From positions 1-23,077 of the IMG/VR virus record IMGVR_UViG_3300027971_000232: a stretch of 23,077 nt of DNA; one strand, 5' to 3'. Source of the stretch: a virus. The position numbers and the translations under genes are program-made. Shown here piece after piece: positions 3,739 to 18,299 of this stretch; position 1 is the first letter of the stretch; every line of letters starts with the position of its first letter. The notes beneath the pieces were generated by a model. The model worked only from the letters and a program-made list of their open reading frames with translations, made no database searches and was not told the origin of the DNA.

Positions 3739-4076
3739 GTCATCTCCTCAATCTTGACCTTCAACATCCCGCCGATCGTGTCGCCCCAACGGATTCTTAA
3801 GTCCCGGATCTGCGAGTCGTCCTCATAAATTAAAGCCTTCGCCATTCCATCGAGCACGGCCTTGAGAAGGTTATCTAGATCTCTCTTGCGGTTATCTGGA
3901 CGGAAGGCCACGATCTCCATCCTGATCGGACCGGTGAACGTATCTACCCGCTGTAGCAGGCACTGCTCCATAACGGATTGTCGGTAGATCCTGCCCTTCT
4001 CCGACAAAATCATCCGTCCTTGAAAGGTCCGCCAGTAAGTGTTTAGGCTCGGCGGCCAAGGTAATGTTAGTTCCAC
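3735..4076 (-). CDS. rusA: RusA-family Holliday junction resolvase
   Basis: 113 residues, the usual length for RusA. RusA homodimers cut four-way DNA junctions with metal-dependent acidic residues. The signature is clear: N-terminal LPWPPSLNTYWR, then KRDLDNLLKAVLDGM with Asp66, Asp68 and Lys72, Asp76, and YEDDSQI with Asp86/Asp87. The start is GTG at 4076, preceded by AGGAG with 7 nt spacing; it overlaps the helicase gene end by 10 nt. In the phage it probably resolves recombination or replication intermediates before packaging, together with the exonuclease and SSB-like protein encoded on the opposite strand. Confidence 0.93.
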   Translation of the reverse strand: MELTLPWPPSLNTYWRTFQGRMILSEKGRIYRQSVMEQCLLQRVDTFTGPIRMEIVAFRPDNRKRDLDNLLKAVLDGMAKALIYEDDSQIRDLRIRWGDTIGGMLKVKIEEMT

Positions 4077-5047
4077 GTCATCGCTCCTGCATTTATGACT
4101 TCAACGTACTGCTGACTCTCTCGCTCGTAAAAGAGCGTGTACCACTCCTCGCCCTCTCCGTTCCTCTGCTTCTCACACATCAGAATTGCATCCGGTGCGA
4201 GAACCTCGGCGTTGTCTCCCGCCTGAATCATTCGCTCCTTCTTCTTGTTTCTCCACCAGATGAAGACGTTATCCACCTGATCTGTGATTGATCCGGATCC
4301 TTTGATATCCATCTTGTTCGGCATCACCTCCTCACTCGAAGCCTTGCGGATGTGATGGATGAGATGGATGTGGATGTTGTGGTCTCTGGCCACCGCGCAC
4401 AACTCGTCAACGAAACCTTTCTGCTCGTTGTAGGCGTCCTCGGCACTTACGCACTTCATGAGGCTGTCAATGACGACGTGCTGTATCCCAAGCTCTACAG
4501 CGCAGTACCGGGCCATCGCCACAACCTGACGGGCATTCACCGAACCTTGTTGGTCGTACAGCCACAGACAACCCTCTGACCAGACCGAGAAGTCCACGCA
4601 AGCCTTGGCAACCTTGTCCACGAGACCGAACCCCGGCACCTCAAAGTTCAACCCGGCAAATTGCCGGAGCATCCTCGTCAGGGTGCGCTTAGGCTTCATC
4701 TCAAAGCTGGCAATGCAGACCTTCTGGCGCTGCTTGATCAGACCTAGCGCGATCTGTCCAGTGGCCAGAGACTTACCGCCACCGTTAGAACCAGCGTAAA
4801 TGGTTACCTCGCCGGGTCGATAATCAAACGAACCGTGAGTCTTTAACCACGGCATCGTGATTTTTACGCTGCGCTCCGGGCGCTCGTAATCCTCAGCGAT
4901 CTCTAGCAACCAGCCAACCGGATCCTTGACGTGCTGGCCGATGTCCTGAGCCTTAGCCCACTTCTCAATATCAACGTCTCCAGACTTTACGATCCGCACC
5001 TTCCGGGCCGCGTCCAGATCCCTAGCTTTCTGTTCAATATCATGCAT
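4067..5047 (-). CDS. DnaB-like replicative DNA helicase (RecA fold)
   Basis: 326 residues: a short N-terminal region (1-60) without the full DnaB N-domain, then a RecA-type motor. Walker A is GSNGGGKS (86-93), the catalytic Glu follows in SFEM (Glu116), Walker B is HVVIDS (Asp194), the H3 region is HIHLIHHIRK (226-235), the H4 region is DIKGSGSITDQVDN (247-260), and an arginine-finger-like KQRNG lies at 293-297. It should form a hexamer that unwinds the fork 5' to 3'. It sits directly after the primase zinc-finger gene (8-nt overlap), so the two look like a split version of a T7 gp4-type primase-helicase. The start ATG has only a weak ribosome site, consistent with coupling. Confidence 0.92.
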   Translation of the reverse strand: MHDIEQKARDLDAARKVRIVKSGDVDIEKWAKAQDIGQHVKDPVGWLLEIAEDYERPERSVKITMPWLKTHGSFDYRPGEVTIYAGSNGGGKSLATGQIALGLIKQRQKVCIASFEMKPKRTLTRMLRQFAGLNFEVPGFGLVDKVAKACVDFSVWSEGCLWLYDQQGSVNARQVVAMARYCAVELGIQHVVIDSLMKCVSAEDAYNEQKGFVDELCAVARDHNIHIHLIHHIRKASSEEVMPNKMDIKGSGSITDQVDNVFIWWRNKKKERMIQAGDNAEVLAPDAILMCEKQRNGEGEEWYTLFYERESQQYVEVINAGAMTWN

Positions 5048-5447
5048 AACGTGTTGCTTCTAAAATTCGCTCTGCCGCTAGTTTAAGTCTTTCTAGATCG
5101 TCTGGGCTTAGGGGTTTTCCATTAGATATGTCGATCGCCGACAGGGCCACAATCAGGCTTTCTACAGAAATAATTCTAAGTAAATCAGTCGCATAGAACG
5201 CTGGTTTGATCTGCTCCCCCCGCTGGACCGGGCCGTCGTCGAACAGGTCGTTCATGTCCAACCCGATCGCGCCAAGCACTTCGTCCACCGCGCAACCTCC
5301 GAAGCAGTGCATCAGCACCCTGCCGTCAGGCTTGAAACGGATCGCCAGCGAGGGTGACTTGTCGTCATGAGCCGGGCACCTCGCCGTCCACGATTCCCCC
5401 CGTCCCCGCACTTGAGAAAGCCTGCTCAGGATGTCCTTGGGGTTCAT
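5040..5447 (-). CDS. CHC2-type primase zinc-binding protein without TOPRIM domain
   Basis: 135 residues. The N-terminal half is a DnaG/T7-gp4-like zinc-binding module: CPAH (Cys24, His27), DDKSPSLAI, then HCFGGC (Cys48, Cys52) and the helix VDEVLGAIGLDMNDLF. The rest (80-135) is helical and shows no TOPRIM acidic motifs, so the catalytic primase core is absent from this protein and is not seen elsewhere in the window. It may recognise the template for a host or separately encoded primase, or recruit the helicase encoded next. GGAGG precedes the ATG by 4 nt and the ATG overlaps the 34-residue gene stop. Confidence 0.88.
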   Translation of the reverse strand: MNPKDILSRLSQVRGRGESWTARCPAHDDKSPSLAIRFKPDGRVLMHCFGGCAVDEVLGAIGLDMNDLFDDGPVQRGEQIKPAFYATDLLRIISVESLIVALSAIDISNGKPLSPDDLERLKLAAERILEATRYA

Positions 5448-5548
5448 AGGCCCTCCACGGGGTCTAGATCAACGCAGGAGACGCGATCGGGCGTGGGTGA
5501 ATACCTGAGTAGCCCCCCGTTAAGAAAACGCGCTGTAGAGCCTCTCAT
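5444..5548 (-). CDS. 34-residue micro-protein between replication genes
   Basis: This short frame exactly bridges the DUF1376 gene and the primase zinc-finger gene: its ATG overlaps the DUF1376 stop and its stop overlaps the primase ATG, both as ATGA. AAGGA lies 7 nt before the ATG. The product begins MRGSTARFLNGGLLRYSPTP and ends in an acidic stretch. No family is recognised. It may be a real small protein or serve mainly to couple translation across the gap. Confidence 0.5.
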   Translation of the reverse strand: MRGSTARFLNGGLLRYSPTPDRVSCVDLDPVEGL

Positions 5549-6273
5549 AGGACTTTCCTTCCGAAGGGTAGAGCGGTGCTTGCGACGTCGTCGTCTAGCC
5601 AGCGCCGTTGGTTGAGATACGTCATGGGTGCGGGTTCAAACCCGGAGAGCCACTGCGTGGTCCCCTTGAGCCGTGAGACGTGAGACACGATCCGCTCAAC
5701 GTGCTCGTCCATGCCGTTGGTGATCCACGTCCGGATGCAGGCTCCCTTGCCAACCTTGCGGGGTGACTTTGGCCAGACCTCCCAGAAGCGGTCGAAACCC
5801 CCGGAAGGGGGTAAGGGGGATATATTCTTATTCTTATTCTGGTTGCCTTGAAGGTTCGCGGTAGTGTTTTCTGACGAACCTTCAAGGTTACCTTGATGGT
5901 CGCTTGTTGGTTCCGTTAAGGTTCGCGGTGATCTCCTTTTGACGCCTTGTGCGGCACGTTCTGCCGCTTTCTGCGCAGCAGCCTTCGCGCCCTTCAAGTT
6001 GCGTTCAATGATGGTTTGGTATGCCTGAACCTCCTCTTCGACCCTACGGTTACGGTAACCAGATTCCGTTTTCTCAAAGAACTCGCTGAGAACCTGCTCA
6101 ACGATATCCTGATCAAGTCGTATCCTGCGGGATACAAGATTGGTATCTAACGGGATAGGCTTCTCGCTGAGATACGCCATATCGAGTAAACGCCGGTACG
6201 CGAGATCTTCGGCATCCGATAGGTGGATGGTCTTGATCTGGTACTCGGCCGCGGCAAATTTGTACCACTTCAC
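5545..6273 (-). CDS. DUF1376/YdaU-like phage replication protein
   Basis: 242 residues. Residues 1-95 match the DUF1376 (YdaU) domain: WYKFAAAEYQIKTIHLSDAEDLAYRRLLDMAY, a winged-helix-like fold found in phage replication initiators. Residues about 100-155 are an Ala/Lys/Arg-rich then Asn/Gln/Gly-rich linker (NLEG, NLQGN, NKNKN). Residues 160-225 (FDRFWEVWPKSPRKVGKGAC ... PMTYLNQRRW) form the C-terminal domain common in phage replication or helicase-loading proteins. The start is GTG (6273), overlapping the regulator's stop as GTGA. The order YdaS-like then YdaU-like matches the Rac prophage layout. It probably initiates replication and recruits the helicase encoded two genes later; the DNA of its linker carries repeats suggestive of an origin. 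Confidence 0.85.
   Translation of the reverse strand: MKWYKFAAAEYQIKTIHLSDAEDLAYRRLLDMAYLSEKPIPLDTNLVSRRIRLDQDIVEQVLSEFFEKTESGYRNRRVEEEVQAYQTIIERNLKGAKAAAQKAAERAAQGVKRRSPRTLTEPTSDHQGNLEGSSENTTANLQGNQNKNKNISPLPPSGGFDRFWEVWPKSPRKVGKGACIRTWITNGMDEHVERIVSHVSRLKGTTQWLSGFEPAPMTYLNQRRWLDDDVASTALPFGRKVL
5798..5929. other. Candidate replication origin inside the DUF1376 gene
   Basis: In the part of the gene that encodes the linker, AAGGTT occurs as direct repeats at 5851, 5884 and 5918 (33 and 34 nt apart), two of them within an exact 12-bp repeat AAGGTTCGCGGT (5851-5862, 5918-5929). CCTTGAAGGTTCG at 5846-5858 is a perfect inverted repeat of CGAACCTTCAAGG at 5875-5887. Directly beside these lies an AT-rich tract with tandem TTCTTA units (5821-5840) and then a small C5/G5 hairpin (5798-5811). 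Iterons inside the initiator gene next to an AT-rich stretch is the lambda ori/O-gene arrangement. The coding of repeated Asn-Leu-Gln-Gly units is an alternative explanation. Confidence 0.4.
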
Positions 6274-6473
6274 AGCGCCTCCCCGAACAGATCGGGCCGC
6301 AGATACTTGCGGTGAATTCCTGTGCGTCTCTCTATGTCAATCGCTAACGTAGCCGACGGAACCTCGCGGCCGCTAACGAGCAGGCTCATCCACGTCTTCG
6401 TGATCCCAAGCTCACGCGCCAAGTCGGTCTTCGCCCCGCGGTGCTTGTCTGAAAAATACTGTTCGAGTGTCAT
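6270..6473 (-). CDS. YdaS/Cro-like helix-turn-helix regulator
   Basis: 67 residues from the ATG at 6473 (MTLEQYFSDK), chosen because it follows a strong purine tract (AAGGGGGAG) and because a longer start (MKFHKQ, 6500) would overlap the likely -10 box. Residues 16-37 (DLARELGITKTWMSLLVSGRE) form a helix-turn-helix, and SATLAIDIERRTGIHRKYLRPDLFG is the C-terminal signature of the YdaS/Cro-like family. It is the first gene of the leftward replication operon, as Cro is in lambdoid phages, and it faces a divergent gene across an inverted repeat, so autoregulation and control of both promoters are likely. In the Rac prophage YdaS is toxic when derepressed. Confidence 0.85.
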   Translation of the reverse strand: MTLEQYFSDKHRGAKTDLARELGITKTWMSLLVSGREVPSATLAIDIERRTGIHRKYLRPDLFGEAL

Positions 6474-6498
6474 CACTCCCCCTTGCTTGTGAAACTTC

Positions 6499-6525
6499 AT
6501 CTTACACGAGATTTTCTTCTGTGAA
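6499..6525 (-). promoter_or_regulatory. Putative leftward early promoter
   Basis: On the minus strand TTCACA (6525-6520, one mismatch to TTGACA) and TAAGAT (6504-6499, four of six matches to TATAAT, preceded by TG) are separated by 15 nt, shorter than the ideal 17. A start point a few bases downstream would give a short leader before the AAGGGGGAG ribosome site of the YdaS-like gene. It is the only intergenic stretch ahead of the leftward operon, so a promoter is expected here even if these exact boxes are uncertain. Confidence 0.4.
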
Positions 6526-6584: not shown

Positions 6585-6806
6585 ATGATTGATCCGTTTG
6601 AAGCCTTGATGGCCTATCACCGGGCCGAGAATGACCGAGCCTCCGTGGAGGATTGGAGCCTGCTCGCCAAATCCGGCGTCAGGAGAACAGTGATCTTAGA
6701 AACCGTTGGAGTTACATATGAGTTTAATTGCGACAGCAGGAAGCGAATCGACCTTCAAGCCAGTGCCCGAAGGAACCCATCTCGCACGTTGCTACCGGAT
6801 CGTTGA
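6585..6806 (+). CDS. Small leader gene of the rightward block, unknown function
   Basis: 73 residues starting at an ATG with a near-perfect AGGAGG ribosome site, the first start after the rightward promoter. The N-terminal 45 residues (MIDPFEALMAYHRAENDRAS ... VTYEF) look like an ordinary acidic helical protein; the last 30 are basic and overlap the SSB-like gene by 89 nt in another frame, far more than elsewhere in this genome. The start is well supported, but the C-terminal part may be passive. It could act as a translational leader for the SSB-like gene, whose GGAG site lies within it. Confidence 0.55.
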   Translation: MIDPFEALMAYHRAENDRASVEDWSLLAKSGVRRTVILETVGVTYEFNCDSRKRIDLQASARRNPSRTLLPDR

Positions 6807-13044: not shown

Positions 13045-14034
13045 TTATGGGGTGTAGCCTTCTGGATAACCCATCAAAGCATTGTATTGCGCTGGGGTTA
13101 AGGCTCCAGAAGTCAATGAATTCAAAATACTGTTTGCAGAGGTGGTTGGTCCCAACAGATTTTTAACGTAACCAGCTAAAGCATTAAGATTCCCAGCTTG
13201 ACCAGCGTCTTTGCCAGCAATTGTTGATCCTAATAAACTGGAAAGTCCAACGACTTGATTGAACGGTGCTTGACTATATTGACCCGTAGTCCCCGGACCG
13301 ACCACCGTCTTTGTTGTCGGAACCGGCAATCCAGTCAAGAACTTCAACGAGTTAATCGCGTTAGTCATCGGGTAATCAAGTTTGGCCTGCTCGTACTGCT
13401 GCTGCGCAGCGCCTGCAGCAGTCAGTGCGCTCGCACCCTTTAATCCAAGTTCCTGCTCCTTCCCGGCCAACGTACCCTGCGTCTGAGCCACTGCGTTCTG
13501 CAACTGACCTTGATTGGTGGCCGCATCAAGAGCGCTCTTGTAAGCGTCTGCAAGCGATTTATTTTGCTGGCCAGAGAGGTTGGCTTGGAAGTCCGCCCCG
13601 GTCTGTCCTAGGGCGCTCGCATAGCGCTGGCTACCCAACCCGCCGGTGCCAGCAAACGACCCGCTAAGTCCCGGAAGAACATTGCGCTGGAAGTTCTGGT
13701 TGGCTAACCGCGCCTGCTCATTCACTACGTTCTGAATGTACGGGTTCATGAACTGCTGGATGCCAGCAGGGTTCATTGCCGTTGCTGCGCTACTTGCCGT
13801 TGATGTCGCGTTCGATAGCCCAGTTTTATACGCATCCGCCGCTGATGACGTGTCTTTGTATCCTTGTGTTTGATAAGGATCTTGAGCCGCTAGACCTGTT
13901 GCGGCTGTTTTTGCCATCTGCGTTACTGCTGCGCTTGACGCAGGAGTCACCGCATTAGTAAACCATGACGGCGCAGCGTCTGTCGTTGTCGTCGTTACGT
14001 TAGGGAGCGGTTGCCCCTCGAATATCGTGCTCAT
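13045..14034 (-). CDS. Conserved podovirus-type internal structural protein
   Basis: 329 residues, rich in Ala, Gln, Thr and Gly. The run FMNPYIQNVVNEQARLANQN, RNVLPGLSGSFAGTGGLGS and QRYASALGQTGADFQANLSG, followed by a Gln-rich stretch and DYPMTNAINSLKFLTGLPVP, is a pattern I recognise from structural proteins of many uncultured podovirus-like phages (MNPY-xx-NVV ... LP ... G-x-FG-S-R). Those proteins are usually annotated only as virion or internal proteins. Repeated amphipathic helices suggest packing inside the capsid or in the tail channel. Its ATG overlaps the giant gene's stop (ATGA). Confidence 0.7.
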   Translation of the reverse strand: MSTIFEGQPLPNVTTTTTDAAPSWFTNAVTPASSAAVTQMAKTAATGLAAQDPYQTQGYKDTSSAADAYKTGLSNATSTASSAATAMNPAGIQQFMNPYIQNVVNEQARLANQNFQRNVLPGLSGSFAGTGGLGSQRYASALGQTGADFQANLSGQQNKSLADAYKSALDAATNQGQLQNAVAQTQGTLAGKEQELGLKGASALTAAGAAQQQYEQAKLDYPMTNAINSLKFLTGLPVPTTKTVVGPGTTGQYSQAPFNQVVGLSSLLGSTIAGKDAGQAGNLNALAGYVKNLLGPTTSANSILNSLTSGALTPAQYNALMGYPEGYTP

Positions 14035-17000
14035 TTCTTACCCCGCAGGTATTCAAGAGGTGACTTAGCCGGCGGAGGCAGCGACTTCGGGTGCGCCTTC
14101 CTTGCTCGTGCTCGAATTGAGTGCATCATTTCGTACAACTTATCCGATCCGGCCTTCGTTGATCCATTACCTAACGCCGAGACTACATCCGCCGGGAATA
14201 CAAACTCGCCATCCGCAAGCATGGCAGGAATATCGTCCGACTGCCCATCCCCCGGACCCGTTACCGCATCTCCGCGGCGGAAGTCAACCCTCATTTTACC
14301 CGAATGAGGAACCAAAGCGGTACTGCCAATTCCAGATCTTTGAGCACCGCCTGCAGCCATCAGTGCCGCAATCGAACCACCAGTAGCGGCCTTGATCTCA
14401 GGGGGATTCAAAAAGTCTGTGTCAAAAATTGACTCAATTGGCTTTTCTTGACCGTAACCCCAGAAGGATGTGTCGTTTTCCAAGTCCTTTTCCTTTTTAG
14501 GCTTTTCCTGACGAGCCTTCTCATCCATCGCGGTGTTGTACATCTGCTGGACCATTGCTTGATAAGCAGCCAATGGACTGACGTATTTTCCCAGATCTCC
14601 AACCTTAAAGGTAGGACTCTTTTCTCCTGCGGCTGCAGGCGTAGACGAGTCTGCTGTCGGGATAGCTGCGGGGCCACTTGGCGTCGTAGGTTTGGTTGGA
14701 GTGGTTGGCGATCCCGGCCCGGTGATAGTTCCCGCGCCGGATCCTGTACCCGAACCACTTCCAGACCCAGAACCGCTACCTGAACCACTTCCTGAGCCGC
14801 TTCCCGAACCACTTCCAGAACCACTCCCGCTCCCCGACCCACTACCACTTCCGCTCCCAGATCCAGATCCGCTACCGGATCCTGATCCAGATCCGCTTCC
14901 AGAACCGCTTCCAGAACCACTTCCGCTCCCAGATCCACTACCTGATCCACTTCCACTTCCGGAGCCACTGCCTGATCCTGAGCCGGACCCGTTTCCTGAG
15001 CCTGAACCACTACCTGAACCACTACCAGATCCGCTGCCAGAACCGCTCCCCGAGCCAGATTCACTACCAGTGCCAGAACCCGCCGTACTGCCTTCGGCTG
15101 AACCCGTCGTTGATCCAGTAGTAGATCCGGTCGTGCTGCCTTGTGTAGATCCTACGGTGCTACCCTGCGTAGAACCGGTTTCGCTTCCCGCCGTAGATCC
15201 AGTTGTACTGCCGACTGTTGATCCAACTGTGCTGCCTTGAGCACTTCCCTGTGTAGACCCCGTAACGCTGCCTTGTGTTGATCCGACCGTGCTCCCTTCC
15301 GTTGAGCCAGAAGTGCTTCCCTGAGTTGAGCCAGTGGTGCTACCCACGGTAGATCCAACGGCGCTCCCTTGTGTTGAGCCCGTTACACTTCCTGTGGCTA
15401 CTCCTCCTCCGGGGCCTGATGTTTTGCCATCACCTTGAAGGCCACCACCCGGAACCGCCCAAGTAGGTCTAACCAAGTCGCTGTCTTTGAGACCGTTTTT
15501 TGATAAGGCTTTTGACCAAGCGTCCGAGGGAGAGTCACCCTGCGCGATGAGCACGCCAGCATCATCGGTTACTTTCTTTGACTGAGAGTCAGATCCACCG
15601 CCAGCTTCAGAACCACCTCCTCCGCCATCACCAGCCTCAGAACCACCACCTCCTCCGCCTCCGCCGCCTCCACCGCCTCCAGCGGCAGTGTCAGATCCAC
15701 CTCCGCCAACGACAGAATCAGAACTACTTCCAGCAGATGAATCAGATCCGCTACTAGAAGATGAGGCCCAAGAAGGAAGATCGTAGTCAGCAGCAGTTAA
15801 GCCATTTTCAGACGCAGCCTGCGACAAAGCCGAACTAACACTTGCTCCGCCGTCGATCAACTCACTAGCACGGGTTGCAACCTTGCTGCTGTTGTTGTCT
15901 CTTGTTTCTTTTGCAATCTGCTCTGCAGTTTTTGTTGGCTTGAAAACTGTTGTTGTAACTGTTGTGTCGTCTTCTTCTGGTTTTGTGGTTGTGGCGAAAT
16001 TGGTAGTGTCAACAGTAGTTGGGTCAAAAACACTTGAGTCTCTGATGTTATCTAATTTTTGCTGAATCTCTGCTTTTTTGTCAGGAGCGGCTTTGTCAAG
16101 TTCGTTTTGAAAAAAGATTTCAAATTGTTCTTTTTGTTGAGGCGTATCAAAAACAAGTCCAAAAAAAGCCTCTGGAGCAAGGTTTTCAAATGAATTTGGA
16201 CCCTGAGAAGAGCCTACCTGAGAACTAAATCTTGCGCTCGGAGACCCGGTGTTTGCTATTTGTTTGCCGTCAGGAGTAACAGCGGCTACTGCAATTAACC
16301 GCCTGAATACGTCATCACTAGATTCAGTTCCTTGGCCTCCGGTTTCAGTTCCGGAGCCTGACCCCGATCCTGCGGCGGCTCCAGATCCAAACCCTGTTCC
16401 AGAACCGTTTCCTTCAGTGCCTAACTGAACATTGGTATTTGTATAGAGTAAACCTCTGCTACGGGCTTCCGCGACCAACTCTGCTTCGTCTTCTGATGAA
16501 ATATCATCATATTCATTCATTAACTCAATTTGGCGACGAATCTCCTCATTTGTCATTGAATACGGTGATTTCGGCAAAGACCTGTAATCAATTACCGATG
16601 CATCTGATTGGTTACCAGTTCCTGCTGCAGTTTGAGTGCCGATTCCAAGTCCTTGGCCAACACCTTGGGAAGCCGCTAGAATTGCGTCTGCACCGGCGTC
16701 ACCCGTTCCAGAATCTGTTTGGATAATCGTGTCATTGCCCGACCCGCCTCTGACAGTATTCGCTCCGCCGCCGCCGGAAGTTGTATCGGTTCCAGTTACT
16801 GAAGCGCCACCACGAGAGGCGTTTGAGTTGACAATATTGGTTGAGGTTTTGGCAAAGTCGCTGCCAGCCTGCAAAAGATTTCCAATCTGTCCGGATCTTT
16901 CATAGTTCTCAATTGCAGTTTTGAGATTCAAAGCCCGACCAGCAAGCTCTGTATTCGGGCTATTGAGGTACGGCGCTAAAGTAACAAGTGCGGGGCCGAA

Positions 17001-18299
17001 TTGATTGTTAGCTAAATTAACGCCAATTGAAGCAAATCTACCGGCGTCGCCTAACGTAAACCCGGTGTTGCCGATTGGGGTGCTTCCTGCCCCAACGGCG
17101 TTTCCTGCTGCAGTGGCTAGACCTGCCCAGTCTTCATTTTTTATCGCTTGGCCAACTTGAAGAACGGGCCTGACAGCGGCTACACCTGATGTTACTTGAC
17201 CTCCAAGAACGTCCAGTGGCGTAGTGGCAAGATTTGTACCTGCACCAGAAGTTGCCCAGTCAGATCCAACTTTATCTGGCGTAAGAGGAGATCCAGCAAG
17301 TGATCCAGCGCCCCCTGCTACAGCAAGAGCAAATCCTAATGGGTCTCCGCGATTTGCCGCTGTATAAGCATCATAAGCGTAAGACAGCGGTGCCGCTGGG
17401 GTAAACTTTGCGCCAAAGTTAATTAACTGGCCAATAGGAGTGGCCATGAATCCACGAGAGCGCTCGCTGAACTGTTCTTGGAAGGTTGGATTTCCGTTTA
17501 CATCAGTTGTTAAATTATAAAAAACGTCTCCGCCTTCAACCCCGTAAGTGCCGTTTTGAATAATGCCAACCCGGTTAGGGTCAATTATTTGATTGGTTTT
17601 TTTATTATAAAACTGAGTGACCGGAACCTCTTCAGACCGTTCAGCAGAAACATCGTCAATGGCAGGGTAGAACCTCGTCTCATTGACAGTGCGAACCCCA
17701 ATGTCGTTTATATCAGCAACACCTTGGCTTAAAAGTCCTTGAGCAACCGAACTACTTGCTGGATTCGGTCCGCCTAATTGGTCTACTAACGCGCCAGCAA
17801 GCGGGTTGTAACCGGGAGAGGGGTTTTCAACTGCGTTGTTAGCCGCAGCAGGCGGTACACCGGTGTAGCTCTCCGACCCGATCGGGCTGTAATCCACAGC
17901 GCTCATCACATTTGATGAGGTATCAGGTGTTGTGTTTTGCGCTGTAGTGGTAAGAGCCGGCAGAGCGCTTACTACTTGATTTTGTGCTGCTGGCTGCGCC
18001 GCAGGCAAGGCACCCGCGGTGTTTGCCCCAGATAACGTGTTGTTGATCTGGTTTTGAATGTTCTGAGCCTGCTCGGTTGCGATGGCAGCCTTCTGCTCCG
18101 GACTCATATATGCAGTAGCCTGAGCTATTGCCGAAGAGTTAGGCGCAACATACCCAGAAATCTTAAATTGCTCGTTCGGAAAGATCTGCTGCAGGCCAGA
18201 GATTAGACCGGCTTCATCTAATCCAGACGGATCAATCCCCTGACCCCGCAGAGCGTTCTGAGCTATCTGATAACCAACGGTGTTGTAGTAATTAGCCAT
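14031..18299 (-). CDS. 1422-residue modular repeat protein, likely virion-associated
   Basis: Four parts are visible. (1) Residues 1-600: an N-terminal helical unit ([20 protein letters not shown]), Ala/Asn/Gln-rich sequence, and amphipathic Gly/Ala helices ([26 protein letters not shown]) as in ejection proteins. (2) Two copies of a roughly 40-residue helical module at about 806-846 and 910-946, each ending NGL-x3-D-x3-P-x-WA, joined by poly-Gly/Ser. (3) A repeat region, about 968-1078 of four-residue GSTx units and 1079-1183 of SG dipeptides. (4) A conserved C-terminal module from about 1335 ([58 protein letters not shown]), known from the ends of many large phage structural proteins. It is the largest gene in the window and begins 1 nt after the preceding gene. 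Confidence 0.8.
14742..15398 (-). repeat. Gly-Ser-coding tandem repeat array
   Basis: About 650 nt coding for GSTx four-residue units (roughly 15065-15398) running into an SG dipeptide tract of about 100 residues (roughly 14745-15064). The basic DNA period is 12 nt. Serine codons switch between the AGY and TCN classes, often alternately, and glycine codons also vary, so identical DNA units are rare even though the protein is monotonous. This is an internal coding repeat, not an intergenic or CRISPR array: there are no unique spacers. Confidence 0.9.

Follow-up and report, generated by a model that had tools for sequence, protein, structure and literature searches.

Phased DNA repeats in the linker-coding part of phage DUF1376 genes as a probable replication origin

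Why should the part of a phage gene that encodes a disordered protein linker be crowded with DNA repeats? The question is raised by the window, that is, the whole 23-kb virus record IMGVR_UViG_3300027971_000232, which carries a gene for a protein of the DUF1376 (YdaU) family. The family assignment follows from an N-terminal match to PF07120 (residues 3–82, E 9e-19), and the PHROG annotation is primosomal/replication initiation protein. In the AlphaFold2 model, two folded domains flank the disordered linker. A Foldseek search with this model placed mainly winged-helix regulators at the top of the list, all with E>1, and neither Foldseek nor a sequence search of the PDB gave a significant match to the protein. 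A search of genome contigs for the host of the virus gave no match.

The genes around it follow one another in one direction, namely, HTH, DUF1376, DnaG-type zinc ribbon, DnaB-like helicase and RusA; a primase zinc ribbon and a helicase thus lie directly downstream of the DUF1376 gene, as a lambda-type intragenic origin would have it. Helicase, primase or helicase-loader genes are found directly downstream of DUF1376 in relatives too. The features of the window to which we refer are as follows:

4067–5047, minus strand: DnaB-like helicase gene of the replication module (Pfam DnaB_C, 2e-16)
5040–5447, minus strand: DnaG-type zinc-ribbon primase gene of the replication module (Pfam Zn_ribbon_DnaG, 3e-6)
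5545–6273, minus strand: gene of DUF1376 (YdaU) type, coding for a proposed replication initiator of 242 aa
5797–5819, minus strand: C-run/G-run inverted repeat (ACCCCCTTCCGGGGGT, 5797–5812, with CCCCCTT before it on the minus strand) adjoining the A-rich array; a similar block is in the same place in ydaU, L122 and L130
5806–5940, minus strand: segment coding for the disordered linker (residues 112–156, AlphaFold2 pLDDT ~30), with the proposed origin
5821–5840, minus strand: A-rich 6-bp tandem array (AATAAG repeats), proposed unwinding element; codons invariant in close relatives
5846–5854, no strand assigned: iteron dyad CCTTGAAGG (dyad-pattern match)
5879–5887, no strand assigned: iteron dyad CCTTCAAGG (dyad-pattern match), core of the palindrome AACCTTCAAGGTT (5877–5889)
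5891–5899, no strand assigned: iteron dyad CCTTGATGG (dyad-pattern match)
5913–5921, no strand assigned: a degenerate iteron, CCGTTAAGG, which the strict dyad pattern does not match; its neighbour is 22 bp away
6270–6500, minus strand: YdaS-like HTH gene directly upstream of the DUF1376 gene (Pfam YdaS_toxin, 2e-7)

Within the linker-coding segment, AAGGTT occurs at 5851, 5884 and 5918 (spacings 33 and 34), an exact 12-bp repeat, AAGGTTCGCGGT, at 5851–5862 and 5918–5929, a perfect 13-bp inverted repeat at 5846–5858 (CCTTGAAGGTTCG) and 5875–5887 (CGAACCTTCAAGG), and an AT-rich TATATTCTTATTCTTATTCT tract at 5821–5840. A sequence-only reading had reported all of these, had placed them in the linker part of the gene and had proposed a lambda-like origin; the repeats are indeed present where it put them, in the part coding for residues ~112–156, disordered in the AlphaFold2 model. 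They exceed what the encoded peptide demands: the linker holds 17 pairs of exact 8-mer repeats against 2.1 expected (p=2e-4, 5,000 synonymous recodings of the gene), and the iteron part alone 12 against 0.73 (p=2e-4, 5,000 synonymous recodings). The copies of AAGGTT are real, but the iteron unit is captured better by a 9-bp dyad, CCWTSAWGG, spaced by roughly multiples of 11 bp rather than by 33–34, with copies at 5846, 5879 and 5891 and a degenerate one at 5913. The proposed initiator gene thus contains several dyad-like iterons, its linker holding three where 0.17 would be expected (p=6e-4), and in random first-order sequences of the window's composition even two dyads within 80 bp were seen in 0 of 200. 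The spacings in the window (33, 12 and 22) do not make a clean 11-bp array, and the AT content of the tract is unexceptional for the window.

The closest relatives, L001–L005, have DUF1376 proteins 75–88% identical to that of the window. Three or four dyads are present in all six sequences of this clade (the window and L001–L005), and the AAGGTT copy of 5918 is missing in two of the five relatives. Dyad spacings of 12 and 33 recur in the window and three relatives, with 12, 12 and 30 in L004 and 11, 12 and 33 in L005, in which the extra dyad falls in another reading frame. The expectation that iterons would be conserved while the protein diverges is therefore borne out: the dyads and their spacing persist, and the peptide encoded at them varies (NLQG, NLEG, NHEG, HDG and VLEG). 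The last dyad lies 7 bp from the AATAAG array in six of six members, so that an AT-rich tract, judged by its presence only, adjoins the iterons throughout. Moreover, there is constraint beyond the protein, synonymous codons being frozen at residues 139–163 (14/18 conserved-residue columns versus 33/134 elsewhere; permutation p=0.001 for a best-window scan over the gene). When 2.9 million viral contigs were scanned with the dyad pattern of the window, three matched, all from its own clade.

For the wider family, we assembled 179 DUF1376 genes from protein-similarity searches, 15 sequenced phages, Escherichia coli ydaU and one DNA-pattern scan; these fall into 77 clusters less than 60% identical, 23 of which were found through protein, no DNA pattern having been used in choosing them. 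In 17 of these 23, linker repeat pairs lie above the synonymous null (total over the 23, 381 versus 66.6), the excess of exact repeats being not significant in the other six; off-frame linker repeats number 198 against 15.4 under synonymous recoding, with the remainder of the gene close to the null (48 versus 33.7). Direct repeats are spaced by 11, 22, 33 and 44 bp in 46, 26, 21 and 13 of the 77 clusters, against 5.8, 3.8, 7.9 and 2.8 expected, respectively, and the 11-bp spacing family is evident in the protein-found clusters alone (16/23 versus 6.7, p=1e-5); separate peaks are seen among the 77 at 7, 14, 21, 28 and 35 bp. Copies at spacings that are not multiples of 3 encode different peptides. 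The iteron sequence is specific to lineage (ACCGAATCG, GCGAACGCA, ATACGAA, TTCAACGnnCG, AATGCGAACGC or TGTTCAAACA), and downstream of the iterons there is an A-rich 6–7-bp tandem array of AATAAG, ATACAG or AACCANN, the iterons being 5' of it in 43 of the 43 clusters in which both were detected. Across the family, then, iteron sequence varies, whereas helical phasing, order and position are constant. Of three complete DUF1376 phages, one has its GC-skew minimum at the site, and skew was dropped as evidence.

A third element, a hairpin or a C/G-run beside the AT tract, has to be added to the earlier list of iterons and AT tract. A sister clade (~45% identical) has GTCGnn-NNN-nnCGAC after the A-rich array; members with a shorter linker have a TCGTCG...CGACGA palindrome instead, and a few have neither. 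Among 13 distinct sister-clade sequences, chosen by their outer arms only, 23 of 26 inner pairs are Watson–Crick, against 11.7 when permuted (p=1e-4), and the covariation score is 0.274 versus 0.095, with none of 500 shuffles as high and all slid controls lower. The signal is weaker across clusters (17/77 at p<0.05 by score; 2/77 for a control window, by stem length), and with so few clusters significant we claim the hairpin firmly for the sister clade only. In the window a C-run/G-run takes the place of the sister-clade hairpin; taken alone, it is not significant (p~0.12). Blocks of this kind (CCCCCTnACCCCC..GGGGG type) follow or adjoin the A-rich array in the window, ydaU (511–538, gene positions), L122, L130, L145, L159 and L199, and encode peptides like PPLPPSGG and PPLNPPRG; they may form a hairpin or a G-rich structure.

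The 2.9 million viral contigs were also scanned by DNA pattern alone, without protein information. Four successive AACCANN units retrieved at least 79 ORFs; among the matches listed, 71 of 79 are DUF1376 by Pfam, and the array is on the coding strand in 74 of the 79 ORFs listed and mid-gene in nearly all. The iteron TTCAACGnnCG gave 79 ORFs, on the coding strand in every case, of which 74 are of initiator type (48 DUF1376, 22 Lin1244_N, 2 DnaT and 2 HTH_36); it is seen mid-gene in proteins of all four kinds (L141, L156, L194, L202 and L382–L455). An AACCA control with an 8-bp period was less specific (23/69 DUF1376 versus 71/79 for the 7-bp period, among the matches listed; the two scans are comparable by the make-up of those matches, not by rate), and because this control was not empty the 7-bp period is a tendency and no rule. 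Arrays of 8-bp period also occur in ORFs of replication-initiation O-like and DnaD-like PHROGs (L259–L338), which suggests that the AACCA array extends beyond DUF1376. The reading frame of the array was considered as evidence and set aside as uninformative, a 7-bp period passing through all frames.

The explanation that we consider best, and highly probable, is that the linker part of the DUF1376 gene contains the phage's own replication origin. The DUF1376 protein would bind the dyad-symmetric iterons on one face of the helix as a dimer, probably via its N-terminal DUF1376 domain; the adjoining A-rich tandem array would then melt and give entry to the helicase, whose gene lies two genes downstream (in relatives, to the helicase or a loader). 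The hairpin or C/G element would act on the strand so opened, and the linker of the protein would be a by-product, kept open-reading and disordered. We infer protein binding, melting, helicase loading and origin activity from sequence, and the earlier proposal of a lambda-like origin gains strong support from the comparison across the family: those of its predictions that sequence can address came out, the origin itself standing as a prediction. As to which part of the protein would read the iterons, across 70 clusters iteron similarity, controlled for the C-terminal domain, tracks that of the DUF1376 domain (partial r 0.13, p=5e-4), whereas no such relation to the C-terminal domain is seen when the DUF1376 domain is controlled for (p=0.94). 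The correlation is small, and physical linkage could be an alternative cause; moreover, the TTCAACG iteron accompanies both DUF1376 and Lin1244_N, and the recogniser could therefore differ from the DUF1376 domain.

Dyads within a gene could instead be operators, bound by some regulator of the phage or by the DUF1376 protein itself to control transcription rather than replication. The iterons are operator-like, a YdaS/Cro-like HTH gene adjoins the DUF1376 gene, and a further exact CCTTGATGG dyad is found at 6604, ~20 nt inside the divergently transcribed gene at 6585. The element, however, keeps to the linker part of the proposed initiator gene in all lineages, irrespective of the neighbouring regulator, and wherever iterons and an A-rich array were both detected the array lies downstream; the dyad set of the window occurs once per contig carrying it, and the combination of an 11-bp phased array, an A-rich array and a hairpin is the anatomy of an origin rather than of an operator. 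We therefore think this explanation unlikely. The possibility that a weakly selected linker has gathered tandem repeats by neutral slippage, with no function in the DNA, draws on the disorder and variable length of the linker, and on L126, where an exact 38-bp repeat, its copies 54 bp apart, resembles a recent duplication. Slippage in coding DNA should give mainly spacings divisible by 3, whereas the peaks are at 11, 22, 7, 14 and 28 bp; nor would it be expected to give inverted copies, frozen synonymous codons or compensatory changes in a hairpin, and we regard it as very unlikely.

The remaining two explanations turn on the gene products. Selection on repeated peptides (NLQG, TES, NQEP and KNKN), with the DNA repeats merely following, fits the visible recurrence of such peptides in many linkers, but copies in different frames encode different peptides (L024, L005 and clade B), and the DNA repeats are far above those in synonymous recodings of identical peptides, making this explanation scarcely credible. 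An mRNA hairpin controlling translation or stability would suit the hairpin covariation, by itself, as well as single-stranded DNA does; iterons in helical phase, some of them inverted, are, however, a feature of double-stranded DNA, and the hairpin is clear in part of the family only, so that we hold an RNA element to be extremely improbable.

The origin reading has a precedent in the lambda and Stx phages, whose initiator gene O carries iterons and an AT-rich tract about midway along it; additional iterons there make the linker of the protein longer (PMC7466680). The DUF1376 genes share with lambda ori the intragenic iterons and AT tract, the imperfect dyad symmetry of the iterons and a helicase-loading gene downstream. 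The proteins differ: lambda O belongs to Pfam Phage_rep_O, whereas the window protein is a DUF1376 protein outside that family, without sequence similarity to O (BLASTP E 3.1 over 14 residues). The iterons of lambda are, moreover, annotated at 20–24 bp spacing and have a different sequence, whereas DUF1376 genes use multiples of 11 bp, and no AACCANN array was found in the lambda O gene. By analogy, the DUF1376 element would work like lambda ori, with no membership of the lambda O family implied. A closer parallel is ydaU of the E. coli Rac prophage, itself a DUF1376 gene, in which TGTTCAAACA/TGTTTGAACA dyads are present as two direct copies 33 bp apart and an inverted copy, followed, as in the window, by an A-rich 6-bp array and then a C-run/G-run. 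Downstream of it is ydaV, encoding a helicase-loader-like ATPase; ydaS is two genes upstream, and the window, too, has a YdaS-like gene upstream, directly next to the DUF1376 gene. What sets ydaU apart is its iteron sequence and its C-terminal domain. An active origin, oriJ, is present in Rac (PMC3945230), which, at the level of the whole prophage, fits the origin reading.

Plasmid iteron origins, such as those of F and RA3, likewise have initiator-bound direct repeats beside an AT-rich region, as proposed here, but, unlike the DUF1376 linker, they are usually located beyond the coding sequence of rep or at the end of it, and we know of no compensatory hairpin described in them. Intragenic iteron origins are thus already known from lambda O; what is new, within the parts of the databases and literature covered, is the unrelated family of 'unknown function', the phasing by one helical turn, the array of 7-bp period and the hairpin with its covariation. 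One of the papers that mention DUF1376 gives it as a domain annotation only.

Tentatively, and at somewhat less than even odds, we extend the scheme to a modular linker cassette shared by unrelated initiator families (DUF1376, Lin1244_N, DnaT and HTH_36), comprising iterons in 11-bp phase that the initiator reads, a generic 6–8-bp A-rich tandem array that the helicase-loading machinery reads, and a hairpin; the well-known phage peptides NQEPITNN and NHKPLTIN would then be a 7-bp DNA repeat translated through three frames. If the origin reading is true, it would give a function to a Pfam domain of 'unknown function' that hundreds of phage contigs share with E. coli Rac, place the origin of each such phage within ~150 bp from its sequence alone, explain a common low-complexity phage peptide as a DNA signal and provide a large natural series for the coevolution of initiator domain and iteron.

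Two further observations may be recorded. Beside the virion genes of the window, a 1422-aa ORF (14031–18299) without a PHROG match contains a long Gly-Ser repeat region. Additionally, a palindromic form of the iteron proper to the lineage (TGCGAACGCA type) also lies within the segment coding for the DUF1376 domain itself in L125 (154–170) and in L127 and L131 (155–169; gene positions), where it is possibly an autoregulatory or second site.
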